Of a stretch of 64,000 bases of DNA, positions 11,794 through 61,247 are shown piece by piece; within the stretch, counting starts at the first letter, position 1, and each line of letters begins with the position of its first letter. The notes beneath the pieces are model-generated. The model saw only the letters and a list, made by a program, of their open reading frames with translations. It was not told the DNA's origin and did not search any database. Made by a program: the position numbers and the translations under genes. The DNA comes from Martinezella rhizogenes (GTDB taxonomy: Bacteria; Pseudomonadota; Alphaproteobacteria; Rhizobiales; Rhizobiaceae), in the NCBI GenBank assembly GCA_013322215.1, contig JAAMEZ010000014.1:310001-374000 (forward strand). The letters are read 5' to 3'.

Positions 11794-11824
11794 TGCGTTT
11801 CCGTCGATCACTCACATTAATTTG

Positions 11825-11892
11825 CATACGCCACGTATATTAGTTGACATACGCGGCGTATGCAATTATTTCATTCACATACGCCGCGTATG
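11825..11892. promoter_or_regulatory. Three-copy TetR operator (tetR-MFS intergenic)
   Basis: Two perfect 15-bp palindromes of the form CATACGC-N-GCGTATG lie at 11848-11862 and 11878-11892. A degenerate third copy lies at 11825-11839 (13 of 15 bases match). Centre-to-centre spacings are 23 and 30 bp. The middle copy falls between the putative -35 and -10 of the MFS promoter and the third copy falls close to its transcription start, as expected for repression by the adjacent TetR protein. Confidence 0.85.
11844..11872 (+). promoter_or_regulatory. Putative sigma-70-type promoter of the MFS gene
   Basis: TTGACA at 11844-11849 is followed after 17 bp by TATTTC at 11867-11872. The start codon lies about 57 bp further on. 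The middle TetR operator copy covers the spacer. No experimental support. Confidence 0.6.
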
Positions 11893-11928
11893 TGTGCGGT
11901 CACTTTGTCCAATCCAGGGAATGTTCCG

Positions 11929-27683: not shown

Positions 27684-28303
27684 GTAAAATCAGGTCGCCG
27701 CTGCTGATGGATATGCCGGCGACCATCTCACCCCCAGCCGTCCGGGCCGGAGCGGGCACGGTCTGATGAGGCGTTGCGCAAGTTCGCAAATAGGTCCCGG
27801 GCTAGTCTGGCGTTGGGCACTGCGCCGGGCGGGTCTTTTCACAGACCGCACGCGAACCGGCAGGCCATCAGCGCGGCCCCTTCTTTTCCTTTGACAAGGC
27901 ATCTTCACGACTTCGCATAAGCCGACACTGGCCGATCGGAGCCGGCGCCGCACGATTCGCCTCATGCGCTTCCAATGTATAGTTTGTATGCAAAACTTAC
28001 TACTTTTGATGTTTTTGCCATAAATAATATACATCTGGTATGTTTATTAAGTATATCCTCCTAATATACTGGTAAAAATTATTAAGTTATTCTTAGTTTC
28101 TGCTGCATTTTTGCATCTGTGACGGATTTATGTCGAGAAATACATGGTGTCCAAGAATTATTATATTTCGATACATCGTCAGTCCCGATAGCGTGCCTGC
28201 ACGAAAGTCTTTCGGGCTTTCGACAAGAGGGAACGGCCGAATTGACGAACGTAGCGGATAGCCTCCGGCCGCGTTCTTATCCGGCAAATCGATTGGAGAA
28301 AAA
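27684..28303. other. Long intergenic leader region upstream of ropA
   Basis: Roughly 620 bp without a supported gene. The first 270 bp are GC-rich with several CG-rich inverted segments but no promoter-terminator pair that would prove an RNA. From about 27980 to 28170 the DNA is AT-rich and probably holds the ropA promoter. A 7-bp dyad AGTATAT-N7-ATATACT is at 28050-28070, and CGAAAG/CTTTCG is near 28200. The latter may be part of the 5' leader. Confidence 0.5.
28050..28070. promoter_or_regulatory. Inverted repeat in the ropA promoter region
   Basis: AGTATAT and ATATACT are separated by seven bases in an AT-rich stretch about 230 bp before the porin start. It could be an operator or simply AT-rich DNA. 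Low confidence. Confidence 0.35.
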
Positions 28304-29365
28304 ATGAATATCAAGAGCCTTCTTCTCGGCTCCGCTGCTGCGCTTGCAGTAGTATCCGGTGCTCACGCGGCTGACGCTGTTGTCGCTGCCGAGCCGGAGC
28401 CCCTGGAATATGTCCGTATCTGCGACGCATACGGTGCTGGCTACTTCTTCATTCCGGGCAGCGAAACCTGCCTCAAGATCGGCGGCAAGGTTCGTACCGA
28501 AGGTCAGTGGTACGATGCCTACAACCCGAGCGCTCGTTTCGGCACGAAGTGGCACACCCGCGCTGAGCTGCAGCTGCAGACGGCAACCGACACCGAATAC
28601 GGCCCGCTGAAGACCAACACCGAGCTGCGTTGGGACTGGAATGACGGCGGCGCTACCTCCACCAACCTGCTGCACGCCAGCATCAGCCTCGGCGGCTTCA
28701 CCGTTGGTAAGGAAGACTCGCAGTTCAACGTCTTCACCGGTTACGCCGGCGACGTCATCAACGACGACGTGGTCTATGACGGCCCGTACGAACTGAACCA
28801 GATCACCTACAACTACGACGCCGGCAACGGCTTCTCGGCTGTGATCTCGCTCGAAGACACGAACTCCGGTTCGGGCGCAACTGGCTCGAATGGCGAAGAC
28901 AGCTCGGATCACTACGCTCCTGACGTTGTCGCCGGTGCTGGCTTCAAGTCCGGCGCATGGGGCTTCAAGGTCGTCGGCGGTTACGACTCGATCGTTGAAG
29001 AAGGCGCCATCAAGGCTCGTGTCGACGCTGACTTCGGTGTCTTCTCGGCCTTCGTCATGGGCGGCTGGAATACCGATGGCTCCAAGCTCAACAAGTATGC
29101 CGGTGCAAACGGCGCTGGCGCTGCCTCCGGCATCGGCTGGGGCGACTGGGCACTCTGGGGCGGCGCAAGCGTTCCGATCAACGAAAAGCTGAAGTGGAAC
29201 TTCCAGGTCGCCTACACCGACTCGAAGATCTTCTCGGCAACCACGAACCTCAAGTTCAAGCCGGTCAAGAACCTTCTGGTCGAGCCGGAAGTTACCTACA
29301 CCAACTGGGACTCCATCAATCAGGACCAGTGGGCTGGTATCATCCGCTTCGAGCGTACGTTCTAA
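28304..29365 (+). CDS. ropA: Outer-membrane porin RopA (Omp2b family)
   Basis: Porin of 353 residues for passive entry of small solutes. Signal peptide about residues 1-22 (ends GAHAAD). The N-terminal constriction EYVRICDAYGAGYFFIPGSETCLKIGGKV, with two cysteines, is characteristic of the alphaproteobacterial porin family (RopA, Omp2a/b). The sequence is rich in alternating beta strands with G, N and W and ends in the outer-membrane signal RFERTF (final Phe). GGAGAAAAA precedes the ATG. It is highly expressed in rhizobia and its codon use looks strongly biased here. A terminator follows. Confidence 0.95.
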   Translation: MNIKSLLLGSAAALAVVSGAHAADAVVAAEPEPLEYVRICDAYGAGYFFIPGSETCLKIGGKVRTEGQWYDAYNPSARFGTKWHTRAELQLQTATDTEYGPLKTNTELRWDWNDGGATSTNLLHASISLGGFTVGKEDSQFNVFTGYAGDVINDDVVYDGPYELNQITYNYDAGNGFSAVISLEDTNSGSGATGSNGEDSSDHYAPDVVAGAGFKSGAWGFKVVGGYDSIVEEGAIKARVDADFGVFSAFVMGGWNTDGSKLNKYAGANGAGAASGIGWGDWALWGGASVPINEKLKWNFQVAYTDSKIFSATTNLKFKPVKNLLVEPEVTYTNWDSINQDQWAGIIRFERTF

Positions 29366-29397
29366 TCTGATCTGAACTAGACCTCCGATCAGAGACG

Positions 29398-29437
29398 GAA
29401 GAAGACCTGGTTTCCCTCCGGGTCTTCTTCTATTTCA
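29398..29437 (+). terminator. Terminator after ropA
   Basis: Stem GAAGAAGACC / GGTCTTCTTC, 10 bp, with a 13-base loop and a following TATTTCATT, 33 bp after the porin stop. Good intrinsic terminator. Confidence 0.85.
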
Positions 29438-34935: not shown

Positions 34936-34951
34936 ATGATATAAAAATCAT
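34936..34951. promoter_or_regulatory. Candidate LysR operator before VOC and LysR genes
   Basis: ATGAT-N6-ATCAT dyad whose last bases overlap the LysR start codon. It is an AT-rich repeat in the 73-bp divergent region. It might be an autoregulatory LysR site. Confidence 0.4.
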
Positions 34952-35870
34952 GCACGAAATGAATAATGTCGCCGCCTCGGACTTGAACCTTCTGCTCGTC
35001 CTGGAGGCGTTGCTTGAGGAGCGTCACGTCTCGCGCGCGGCTCTGCGGCTCAATCGCTCGCAACCGGCCGTCAGCCACGCACTGGCAAGGCTGAGGGATA
35101 TCTTCAACGATCCATTACTGGTGAGAGGCGGCGATGGGATGCAGCCGACGGCACGAGCGCTGCAGCTCGCCGAGCCGCTGTCGGAAGCCCTTGCGCTCGT
35201 GCGCTCCCTGGTGGAACAGCCACTATTCGATATCAGGCGGACCGAGCGCCTTTTCCGCCTGTCGCTATCGGACTATGGCGCCGCCATTCTCCTGCCGGCC
35301 CTTGTCTCGCGGCTGAGGCAATGCGCCCCGCTCGTCGATCTCACCGTCGTCTCCTATGGCAGGGAGAAAGCTCTTGCCACCTTGACGGATGGCGAGCTCG
35401 ACCTTGCCGTCGGCGTCTATCCGACATTGAAACAGCCGAGTCATCGCGATCTCAACAGCACGCTATTGTTCAAGGAGAGCTTCGCCTGCCTGGTGGATGC
35501 GAAGTCCGCACCTGCGCCCCTGGACCTCACCGGCTATCTGTCGCGGCCTCATGTTCAGGTTTCCGTTGCGCTGCAGGACAGCAGCGAGATCGATGCAGCA
35601 CTCTTGCGACTGGGTCACAAGCGCCGGATCGCCGTTCAGATTCCACATTGGTCGACCGCACCGGATCTCGTACGCGGCACCGATCTCATATTGACCGCGG
35701 CACGACGCAGCATAGAACATTTGTCGGACCAGGGTCTTCTATGTCTTGACGTGCCCTTCGCCCTGCCGAGCTTTCCCTTCGTCCAGACCTGGCATCGTCG
35801 CCGCGATCGGGATGCGGCGCATCGTTGGCTCCGCGGGCAGATCGAGGACTTGGTGCGGCAGGCGACATGA
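34950..35870 (+). CDS. LysR-family transcriptional regulator
   Basis: Regulator of 306 residues. Winged helix: DLNLLLVLEALLEERHVSRAALRLNRSQPAVSHALARLRDIFNDPLL, with recognition helix near residues 33-48. Substrate-binding domain from about residue 90 (LFRLSLSDYGAAILLPALV). ATG 34950 is used; ATG 34959 is an alternative. The neighbouring VOC gene is divergent and is its likely target. Effector unknown. Confidence 0.9.
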   Translation: MHEMNNVAASDLNLLLVLEALLEERHVSRAALRLNRSQPAVSHALARLRDIFNDPLLVRGGDGMQPTARALQLAEPLSEALALVRSLVEQPLFDIRRTERLFRLSLSDYGAAILLPALVSRLRQCAPLVDLTVVSYGREKALATLTDGELDLAVGVYPTLKQPSHRDLNSTLLFKESFACLVDAKSAPAPLDLTGYLSRPHVQVSVALQDSSEIDAALLRLGHKRRIAVQIPHWSTAPDLVRGTDLILTAARRSIEHLSDQGLLCLDVPFALPSFPFVQTWHRRRDRDAAHRWLRGQIEDLVRQAT

Positions 35871-36019: not shown

Positions 36020-36190
36020 AAAAAAGAGAAGGATTCGGAGGGAAAGCCGAATCCTTCTCGTCTTGATCGGAGGTCAACCGATCGGGGTGGGCAGCCGCAT
36101 CGGATTGGAACGATGGGCTGCTGCTACCGACACAATGTGTCGGATGCCGGTCGGACGCGGACGTTTGAAAACGTCCTCTCGTCCGTGCTT
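36020..36190 (-). ncRNA. Candidate structured small RNA, about 170 nt
   Basis: Read on the minus strand. A sigma-70-type promoter lies at 36197-36225, and the region downstream folds into five successive hairpins: 36159-36175 (7 bp, UUCA loop), 36127-36143 (7 bp), 36091-36121 (11 bp, one bulged base), 36065-36083 (6 bp), and a terminator of 13 bp at 36026-36059. That terminator is followed by six T in the RNA sense. The pyrimidine-rich loops (UUGACCU, CUUUCCCU) could bind ribosome sites of mRNAs. No ORF with a ribosome site fits either strand. The family is not identified. Confidence 0.72.
36026..36059 (-). terminator. Intrinsic terminator of the small RNA
   Basis: Stem GAGAAGGATTCGG / CCGAATCCTTCTC, 13 bp with an eight-base loop. 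On the minus strand it is followed by six T (positions 36025-36020). Strongest terminator in this part of the window, and no protein gene on that strand ends here. Confidence 0.88.
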
Positions 36191-36196
36191 GGCTCC

Positions 36197-36225
36197 TATA
36201 TACATACATTCGGTATGTTTGACAA
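36197..36225 (-). promoter_or_regulatory. Promoter of the small RNA, with a dyad in the spacer
   Basis: On the minus strand, TTGTCA (36225-36220) and TATATA (36202-36197) with a spacer of exactly 17 bp. The spacer holds an inverted repeat ACATAC-N5-GTATGT (36202-36218), a possible repressor site. Start of transcription is expected near 36190. Confidence 0.75.
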
Positions 36226-36531: not shown

Positions 36532-38091
36532 ATGAACTTTCTGGGAAAAGACAGTTTTGCGGGTGCGCATCGGCAGGCTGCGTCAATCGACAGCAGGTCA
36601 TCCTCCGAATATTGGTGGGTGCCTGGGAGCCTGGCCATCTATTTCATCGTGCAGGCAGTCGTCCGCATCGCTATCTCCAACTCGCTGCGGATCGACGAAG
36701 CACAGCAGTTTCTCGTGGGCCAATGGCTCGCCTGGGGATATGACGCCCAACCGCCGCTCTACAACTGGATTCAGTACGGCATCTTCGAAATTTTCGGCAC
36801 GACTGTCGCATCGCTCGTCATAGTGAAGAATCTTCTGCTCTTCCTCGTCTACTTCGCTTATTACAAGCTTCTTGGACTGCTCGTGACCGACAAAAAGCTG
36901 GCGGCGGTCGGAACGCTGTCGCTCTTGACGATGCCACAGATGTTCTGGCAGGCGCAGAGAGACCTGACGCATACCGTCGGCACTCTGCTTGCGGTGCTGA
37001 TGCTAATCTACTTCGTCGTTGCGACCATTCGCCGCCCTACGGTCATTTCCTATGCGCTGATCGGCCTCTGGGCCGGGCTTGGAATGCTTACCAAATACAA
37101 CTTCGCTCTGGTCATTGTCAGCGTCCTCGTCGCGACCTTCTTTCATCCCGAAGGACGAAAAAGACTTTTGGACTGGCGCCTTCTGCTGACACTCGTGATC
37201 GCCGGTCTCGTGTTCCTGCCGCATGCCGTGTGGATGGTGTCCAACATGGACCGCGTCCTGACAACGACCGTAAACACCATGTCGGAACAAGGCGCCGGCG
37301 GAAAGCTTTCCGACATCGGTTTCGGACTTCTCGAACTGGTCAAAACGAGCATCGCAATCGTCGCGCCTACGAGCGTGATCTTTCTGCTGTTCTTCCGTCA
37401 ATCGTTCCTGCGTTCGCTGCGTGCCAGAAGCGAGTGGAGCGATTTCGTCGGAAGGATACTATTAAGCACGGTCGCGATTCTGCTGGTGTTGATACTGGTG
37501 ATAACGCTCACGGAGTTTCGCGACCGCTGGCTGCTCCCTTTCCTGTTTCTGCTGCCCGCCTACTTCTGTCTGAAACTCGATGCCGCGGGCGAGCAACTTG
37601 GCACTGAGATAAAGAAATTCCTTTATCTACCCATCGTCATGATGGTGGCACTGCCATTGATATTGGCGGGAGGCATCCTCTTCGCTCGGTTTTTCCATTC
37701 TTATGAGCATCTGAACACGCCCTATGCGACCTTCGTAGACAAAATCGTTGCCGCAGAAGGAAAACAACCCTCGGCAGTCGTGACGACGACCTGGCACAAG
37801 GCGGGCAATCTCCGTGTGAACATGCCACACACAGCCGTGATATCAACGGAATATCCTGCTTCGGACCTTAGTCGCCAGGTTATAGGAGATGGGCCGGTCC
37901 TGTTGGTCTGGAACGAGCGAGACGGGCATCAGTCAAGCATGCCGAACGCCTTGAAGCTATGGTTCACGTCGAAATTCGGAACAGCGGCGCAATTGCCATC
38001 GCAACAGGATATTGCCCTTCCCTATTATTACGGGAAGGACCCGGATCGCTATCATTTTGGCTATGCGTGGTATTATCCGAAGCCGAACTGA
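36532..38091 (+). CDS. GT39-type membrane glycosyltransferase (PMT/ArnT fold)
   Basis: Integral membrane protein of 519 residues with 10-12 hydrophobic segments, followed by a soluble C-terminal domain. The N-terminal loop after TM1 holds the acidic catalytic residue of the family in LRIDEAQQF (about residues 53-61), and AQPPLYNWIQY is the matching periplasmic PPL motif. Related proteins move sugars from a polyprenyl phosphate to lipid A, proteins or glycans. No adjacent sugar genes, so the acceptor is unknown. Start ATG 36532 has GGAGA upstream. Confidence 0.87.
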   Translation: MNFLGKDSFAGAHRQAASIDSRSSSEYWWVPGSLAIYFIVQAVVRIAISNSLRIDEAQQFLVGQWLAWGYDAQPPLYNWIQYGIFEIFGTTVASLVIVKNLLLFLVYFAYYKLLGLLVTDKKLAAVGTLSLLTMPQMFWQAQRDLTHTVGTLLAVLMLIYFVVATIRRPTVISYALIGLWAGLGMLTKYNFALVIVSVLVATFFHPEGRKRLLDWRLLLTLVIAGLVFLPHAVWMVSNMDRVLTTTVNTMSEQGAGGKLSDIGFGLLELVKTSIAIVAPTSVIFLLFFRQSFLRSLRARSEWSDFVGRILLSTVAILLVLILVITLTEFRDRWLLPFLFLLPAYFCLKLDAAGEQLGTEIKKFLYLPIVMMVALPLILAGGILFARFFHSYEHLNTPYATFVDKIVAAEGKQPSAVVTTTWHKAGNLRVNMPHTAVISTEYPASDLSRQVIGDGPVLLVWNERDGHQSSMPNALKLWFTSKFGTAAQLPSQQDIALPYYYGKDPDRYHFGYAWYYPKPN

Positions 38092-61097: not shown

Positions 61098-61247
61098 AGC
61101 CTCATGAGGTTACAGATCGTGCCAAGCGGACGCGATGGTGCTGAAGAATATGGAGATTTTTCCGCTTTCTCTCCGTAGCCAACGAAACGGCAGACGAGCT
61201 TCCTATCCATCCGATCTGCAGCCTTCCAACGTTCAAGGAGATGGAAG

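Follow-up and report, generated by a model that had tools for sequence, protein, structure and literature searches.

The window, that is the whole 64,000-nucleotide stretch of DNA analysed here, carries between a LysR gene (34950-35870, plus strand) and a PMT_2-domain gene (36532-38091, plus strand) a minus-strand element at 36225-36020 that would be transcribed against both neighbours. This element is almost certainly a real, conserved small-RNA gene, and from its sequence it is likely to be transcribed. Its parts are the following:

36197-36225, minus strand: promoter, with the -35 box TTGTCA at 36225-36220, a 17-bp spacer and the -10 box TATATA at 36202-36197 (read from the sequence, with conservation)
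36202-36218, no strand assigned: operator-like dyad ACATAC-N5-GTATGT within the promoter spacer, kept in seven aligned copies
36020-36190, minus strand: predicted small RNA of about 171 nt (positions of promoter and T tract, folding, and conservation ending after the T tract)
36152-36185, minus strand: hairpin 1, two stacked stems, not conserved (folding; alignment)
36127-36143, minus strand: hairpin 2, CCGACAC-AUU-GUGUCGG (alignment)
36091-36121, minus strand: hairpin 3, equal to cassette hairpin B, with the loop UUCCAAUC at 36110-36103, common to some porin 3' ends
36065-36083, minus strand: hairpin 4, equal to cassette hairpin C, GAUCGG-UUGACCU-CCGAUC, with UUGACCUCC at 36077-36069, common to porin 3' ends and a second free-standing RNA
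36020-36059, minus strand: hairpin 5, equal to cassette hairpin D and intrinsic terminator, with the loop CUUUCCCU at 36046-36039 (sequence, consensus scan)

The first-pass annotation of this DNA had proposed at this place a candidate small RNA, about 170 nt long and equipped with a promoter and a terminator of its own, that ends in a hairpin with a 13-bp stem and six T, and these points were borne out. The predicted transcript (36190-36020) measures 171 nt, and direct reading of the minus strand gave for hairpin 5 (36059-36026) a stem of 13 bp with the loop CTTTCCCT, followed by six T at 36025-36020; the terminator was also picked up by the consensus scan. Folding of 36195-36020 yielded -82.4 kcal/mol compared with -48.9 +/- 4.2 kcal/mol in 200 dinucleotide shuffles (z -7.9), none of which folded as well. 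The promoter was not listed by the consensus promoter scan because the scan requires T at the sixth base of the -10 box, which is A here; its support comes from the 29 of 32 promoter columns that are invariant in seven copies of the gene. The annotators had not recognised the family, and neither did Rfam 15: zero families matched the locus at the gathering score, and a permissive search returned nothing credible (best sub-threshold E 0.17). Elsewhere in the window (61110-61217, plus strand) the Rfam family RF02496, the small RNA Atu_At1, was found with 103.5 bits; it is unrelated to the RNA described here. A small protein encoded by a 63-aa minus-strand frame was considered and rejected, since the frame opens before the point at which the RNA is predicted to begin and the copies, which are 170, 169, and 167 nt long, do not preserve it.

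For the seven-copy alignment the window's genome was combined with G141 (same species), G020, G021, G066, G104, and G103, in all six of which the neighbouring DNA also matched; the diverged copy L436 was excluded. Invariant columns numbered 142 of 246 upstream, 29 of 32 in the promoter with the dyad, 22 of 52 in the 5' part of the RNA (hairpin 1), 15 of 17 in hairpin 2, where variation was confined to the loop, 98 of 104 in hairpins 3-5 with the T tract, and 2 of 60 downstream. The constrained region in this alignment coincides with the predicted gene except that hairpin 1 falls outside it. Thus all five hairpins of the first-pass annotation are present, but the five are not the conserved unit because hairpin 1 is not conserved. 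A diverged eighth copy (G132) adjoins the same DNA on the PMT_2 side (76% over 1,612 nt) and keeps the promoter, the arms of the dyad (its centre is changed), and the hairpins, the stem changes being paired (GCAGCC/GGCUGC to GCAGCU/AGCUGC and GAUUCGG/CCGAAUC to GAUCCGG/CCGGAUC). The check proposed in the first-pass annotation, whether stems persist in relatives through compensatory changes, was passed in the seven-copy alignment and in the G132 copy, and also in the stem counts given below. Two further copies, in R. dioscoreae (L155) and isolate AFS049917 (L221), were read at the cassette end, and the dyad is present in both.

When the genome was searched with the element, two additional loci were found in which the similarity was restricted to its 3' part. 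Both lie directly 3' of stop codons, behind genes that end in ...ILRFERAF and ...ILRFQRSF and that were matched by a porin query. This query identified 10 porins in the genome, and the Porin_2 domain (PF02530) was confirmed in the two that were tested, the window's porin and a porin named P1 here. An exact cassette of hairpins C and D (hairpins 4-5) follows the stop codons of three of the ten porins (L099, L101, and L103), two of which (L101 and L103) also have hairpin B (hairpin 3) behind them; degenerate forms stand behind L106, L107, and L108, and P1 (L105) is without a cassette. The small RNA therefore shares both sequence and hairpins with mRNA 3' ends, as a 3'UTR-related small RNA does. 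This kinship of hairpins 3-5, and the predicted target P1 of the loop UUGACCUCC, had been overlooked in the first-pass annotation. The porin of the window lies 6.7 kb from the small RNA and has these features:

28027-28043, plus strand: dyad ATATACATCTGGTATGT, one mismatch to the dyad of the small RNA, upstream of the window's porin
28304-29365, plus strand: Porin_2 gene of 353 aa, given with its stop codon (Pfam PF02530, E 5.5e-81)
29366-29432, plus strand, end approximate: degenerate C-D cassette behind the stop codon of this porin (L107), CUAGACCUCC ... UUUCCCU

The cassette pattern was found in 65 of 120 genomes of the genus, with a single match for the reversed-pattern control, and there are five units in G000. 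Across units the stems vary and covary and the loops UUGACCUCC and UUCCCU are constant. Stems were counted by anchoring on the loop and no covariance model was built, because MAFFT set the terminators out of register when it aligned the units. At least nine pairs flank UUCCCU in 134 of 156 distinct units (mean 11.3 pairs, 78 distinct terminator stems), a set that contains some chance matches (minimum one pair). Swapping arms between units reduced the mean to 3.5 pairs (maximum 4.2 of 200 rounds). A second control, which is not clean as it still includes cassette sites, gave a mean of 5.8 pairs at 523 plain TTCCCT sites in the collected loci, 126 of which have at least nine.

Beyond the genus the exact two-loop pattern occurred in 10 of 297 genomes order-wide and 15 of 247 family-wide, the latter mostly by chance: among 21 matches outside the genus that were read, 20 have at most seven pairs round the second loop and were taken as chance. 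An intergenic match in another genus of the family (L095; G609:C4:32373-32419, minus strand) consists of TTGACCTCC and then a UUCCCU-loop terminator hairpin whose stem has at least 13 pairs, in a genome that also contains GGAGGTCATT porin sites; it may be a true, possibly free-standing relative. Two other out-of-genus matches (L088 and L089) run antisense across the starts of porin genes. Cassette variants with the second loop ACUUCCCU were observed in G034 and G064 (L375 and L381), where no long frame ends within 260 nt upstream, and G070 and G071 are listed with the same pattern; these variants are possibly another free-standing RNA.

The second free-standing RNA, at G000:C27:242531 (L053:4400-4620, plus strand), is about 75 nt long and has the two loops of the cassette, but its stems are quite different. 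The set for this RNA comprised 22 sequences, 21 of which were read after removal of L029, a porin tail. Its hexamers in this genome are TTGACA-N16-TATAAT, most copies have a CTAAG-N5-CTTA motif between the hexamers, and an Rfam search with it gave no match.

The loops suggest what the small RNA may pair with. P1 represents one porin class (G000:C27:667357-668415) and has the ribosome-binding site region CUUUGACUGGAGGUCAAUAUG; within it GGAGGUCAA is the exact 9-nt complement of loop C, UUGACCUCC, so that pairing in the cell is predicted. The earlier remark that the pyrimidine-rich loops could pair with Shine-Dalgarno sequences fits this complementarity. The pattern GGAGGTCAAN{1,8}ATG occurs six times in the 8.16-Mb genome (reversed control, two). 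Of these six GGAGGTCAA sites, 1-8 nt before ATG, two stand at clear gene starts, those of P1 and of an integrase-like frame of 481 aa; another is a cassette in reverse reading, and behind the remaining three there are 17, 100, and 261 codons. A scan of the genus for GGAGGTCAAT..ATGAA matched 62 of 120 genomes, and 28 of 30 loci read were the P1 porin, all 28 with AGGGAA upstream; the remaining two were one other gene.

For the comparison of site and cassette 80 regions among the matches listed were taken, and 122 distinct porins passed the start, length, and flank filters; the tenth porin of this genome (L104) was removed by the first of these filters and was examined on its own. Among these porins from the matches listed 22 of 122 have GGAGGUCA at the site, all 22 with AGGGAA between -75 and -45, and GAUUGGA, the complement of loop B, stands in the ribosome-binding sites of 40 of the other 100. 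The cassette follows none of the 22 GGAGGUCA porins versus 42 of the 100 others (Fisher p 4e-5, uncorrected for shared ancestry; paralogs also inherit ends). At the level of genomes (n = 120, shared ancestry likewise uncorrected) 55 have the 9-nt site and the cassette, seven the site only (two of these at a non-porin gene), 10 the cassette only, and 48 neither.

The site is more widespread than the cassette. In the same 247 family-level genomes GGAGGUCA precedes porins in 113 (62 of 109 genera), compared with the 15 that have the cassette pattern, and the P1 site is therefore older than the cassette and was not made by the RNA; loop C may have been shaped to fit it. In the 12 loci read the GGAGGUCA porin site is often inside UUGAC-UGGAG-GUCA, and this local hairpin is an alternative reason for its conservation. 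No change in loop C was found to compensate for one in the P1 site, or the reverse; loop C is unchanged in G034, where the site reads GGAGGUCAU. Family-level porin 5'UTRs (L404-L415) have a recurrent leader round GATGGGGCAGGGAA...CTGTCCTTCAGC before MNIKSLL porins of other genera; these leaders also carry the Shine-Dalgarno hairpin UUGAC-UGGAG-GUCA and may be a regulatory element in their own right.

Duplex energies were calculated for 48 gene starts, a small, non-random sample into which the integrase-like start entered via the same pattern as P1. With loop C, P1 ranked second at -18.1 kcal/mol, behind the integrase-like start at -20.7 kcal/mol. With loop B, porin L108 came first, porin L106 fifth, and the window's porin sixth; with loop D, the window's porin came second and P1 fell outside the top eight. 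That the predicted targets of hairpin B include the window's own porin sits badly with a simple switch.

The dyad of the promoter is enriched in the window: five matches with at most two mismatches were counted versus 0.47 expected, and none of 100 shuffles reached five. Upstream of same-class porins of other genomes (n = 9) the dyad stands with 0-1 mismatches in only five cases and with 2-4 mismatches in four, and a same-class porin also lies 5-7 kb from the small RNA in G020, G021, and G066. A dyad common to the small RNA and the nearby porin hints at co-regulation. Three of the five dyads in the window, ACATACGCCGCGTATGT and two variants, are clustered at 11824-11893 and may be operators of a different regulator.

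We put a probability of roughly 0.6 on the reading that the element is a porin-tail-related antisense RNA of the MicF kind, by which P1 would be repressed whenever accessory porins are produced. A regulator binding the dyad would permit the promoter to fire and the small RNA to be produced. Hairpin C would then form a kissing contact with the P1 Shine-Dalgarno sequence GGAGGUCAA, which can itself occupy the small hairpin UUGAC-UGGAG-GUCAA, and AGGGAA, some 57 nt before the start of P1, is a possible partner of hairpin D (UUCCCU), the antiparallel order being correct; the pairing would block initiation on the P1 mRNA. Hairpin B (UUCCAAUC) may target other porins with GAUUGGA sites. With the same loops on the 3' ends of accessory-porin mRNAs and on the second short RNA, several promoters could feed one effect, the lowering of P1 when another porin or programme is active. 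A wider proposal, which we offer tentatively and consider somewhat improbable as a whole, is that of a portable Rhizobium cassette for porin exclusion: one pair of anti-Shine-Dalgarno hairpins behind accessory porin genes and under at least two independent promoters, so that production of an accessory porin or firing of either small-RNA promoter would silence the ancestral P1, the loop having been shaped to fit the ancient ribosome-binding site of that porin.

Small RNAs antisense to the start region of porin mRNAs are described for enterobacteria in PMC5745476 (MicF and MicC), which also gives co-regulation with a nearby porin for the pairs ompC-micF and ompN-micC. The element would resemble these in its predicted antisense contact with the start region of P1 and, if the dyad it shares with a nearby porin does signal co-regulation, in that respect too. 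It differs in standing 6.7 kb from that porin and not beside it and in being made of porin 3'UTR hairpins; the comparison is one of descriptions. IpeX of E. coli originates at the 3' end of the porin gene nmpC. That RNA, mentioned as an ompC regulator in PMC5745476, is likewise a porin-regulating RNA (a predicted role here) from the end of a porin gene, in another host and again compared by description.

The presence of identical loops at the ends of porin mRNAs and in both free-standing RNAs would also be expected if the latter mimicked porin 3' ends and soaked up a factor that recognises the loops (an RNase, an RNA-binding protein, or another small RNA), so that the cassette-bearing porins would be protected or destabilised. 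The part of PMC3927594 on the SmelB053 family (section 2.5) provides a printed precedent: free-standing RNAs there share hairpins with 3'UTRs, mostly of cold-shock genes, and an interceptor role is proposed for SmelB053 and the cold-shock 3'UTRs. The element is similar in that its hairpins recur in 3'UTRs belonging to a single protein family, with porins and anti-Shine-Dalgarno loops here versus cold-shock genes and the second-hairpin loop GGAUGUA there; membership in that family was rejected on the absence of GGAUGUA and because the upstream genes are porins and not cold-shock genes. We regard such interception as unlikely, since it leaves unexplained both the complementarity of the loop to the P1 ribosome-binding site and the absence of the cassette from 22 of 22 P1-type porins among the matches listed.

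Rather less likely still is a general anti-Shine-Dalgarno RNA whose loops target many mRNAs, with P1 as just one among them. ACCUCC, the greater part of loop C, is a general anti-Shine-Dalgarno sequence; this motif and CCCUCC are found within or next to two of the loops, and other starts paired nearly as well in the small sample. RNAs of this kind, SmelA075 and SmelA099, have been called 'cuckoo RNA'. Section 2.7 of PMC3927594 describes for them several hairpins with conserved anti-Shine-Dalgarno loops CCUCCUCCC, variable stems, and several copies per genome, and is the precedent for this explanation. The cassette has constant loops, variable stems (78 distinct), and several copies per genome as well; its loops are UUGACCUCC, UUUCCCU, and UUCCAAUC and not CCUCCUCCC, the absence of which speaks against this explanation and led us to reject membership in the SmelA075/SmelA099 family, and it has a link to porins. 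Furthermore, taken out to its 9-mer, the loop has a complement that precedes few starts in the genome. That the element is a relic of a lost porin gene, with the 3' end retained solely as a terminator beside a chance promoter, would account for the kinship with porin 3' ends but is very improbable, given that promoter and hairpins are conserved while the flanks diverge and that a blastx comparison of the intergenic region with the 122 porins from the matches listed found nothing (best E 2.5).

Antisense RNAs, kinship with 3'UTRs, and anti-Shine-Dalgarno loops are each already known; the new point is the kinship of the small RNA with porin tails, and in the open-licence literature we recognised no report of the cassette or of porin 3'UTR RNAs in Rhizobium. 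If the antisense reading is true, it would illustrate one route to porin-regulating small RNAs in alphaproteobacteria, in which hairpins from the tails of porin mRNAs acquire promoters and become adapted to the ribosome-binding site of a paralog. Specialists would be interested in a logic like that of MicF arrived at from a different origin. It would also provide a testable rule, namely that cassette-bearing porins repress the cassette-free porin, with a named target and sites to mutate, and would suggest a way for a rhizobium to coordinate its ten porins.
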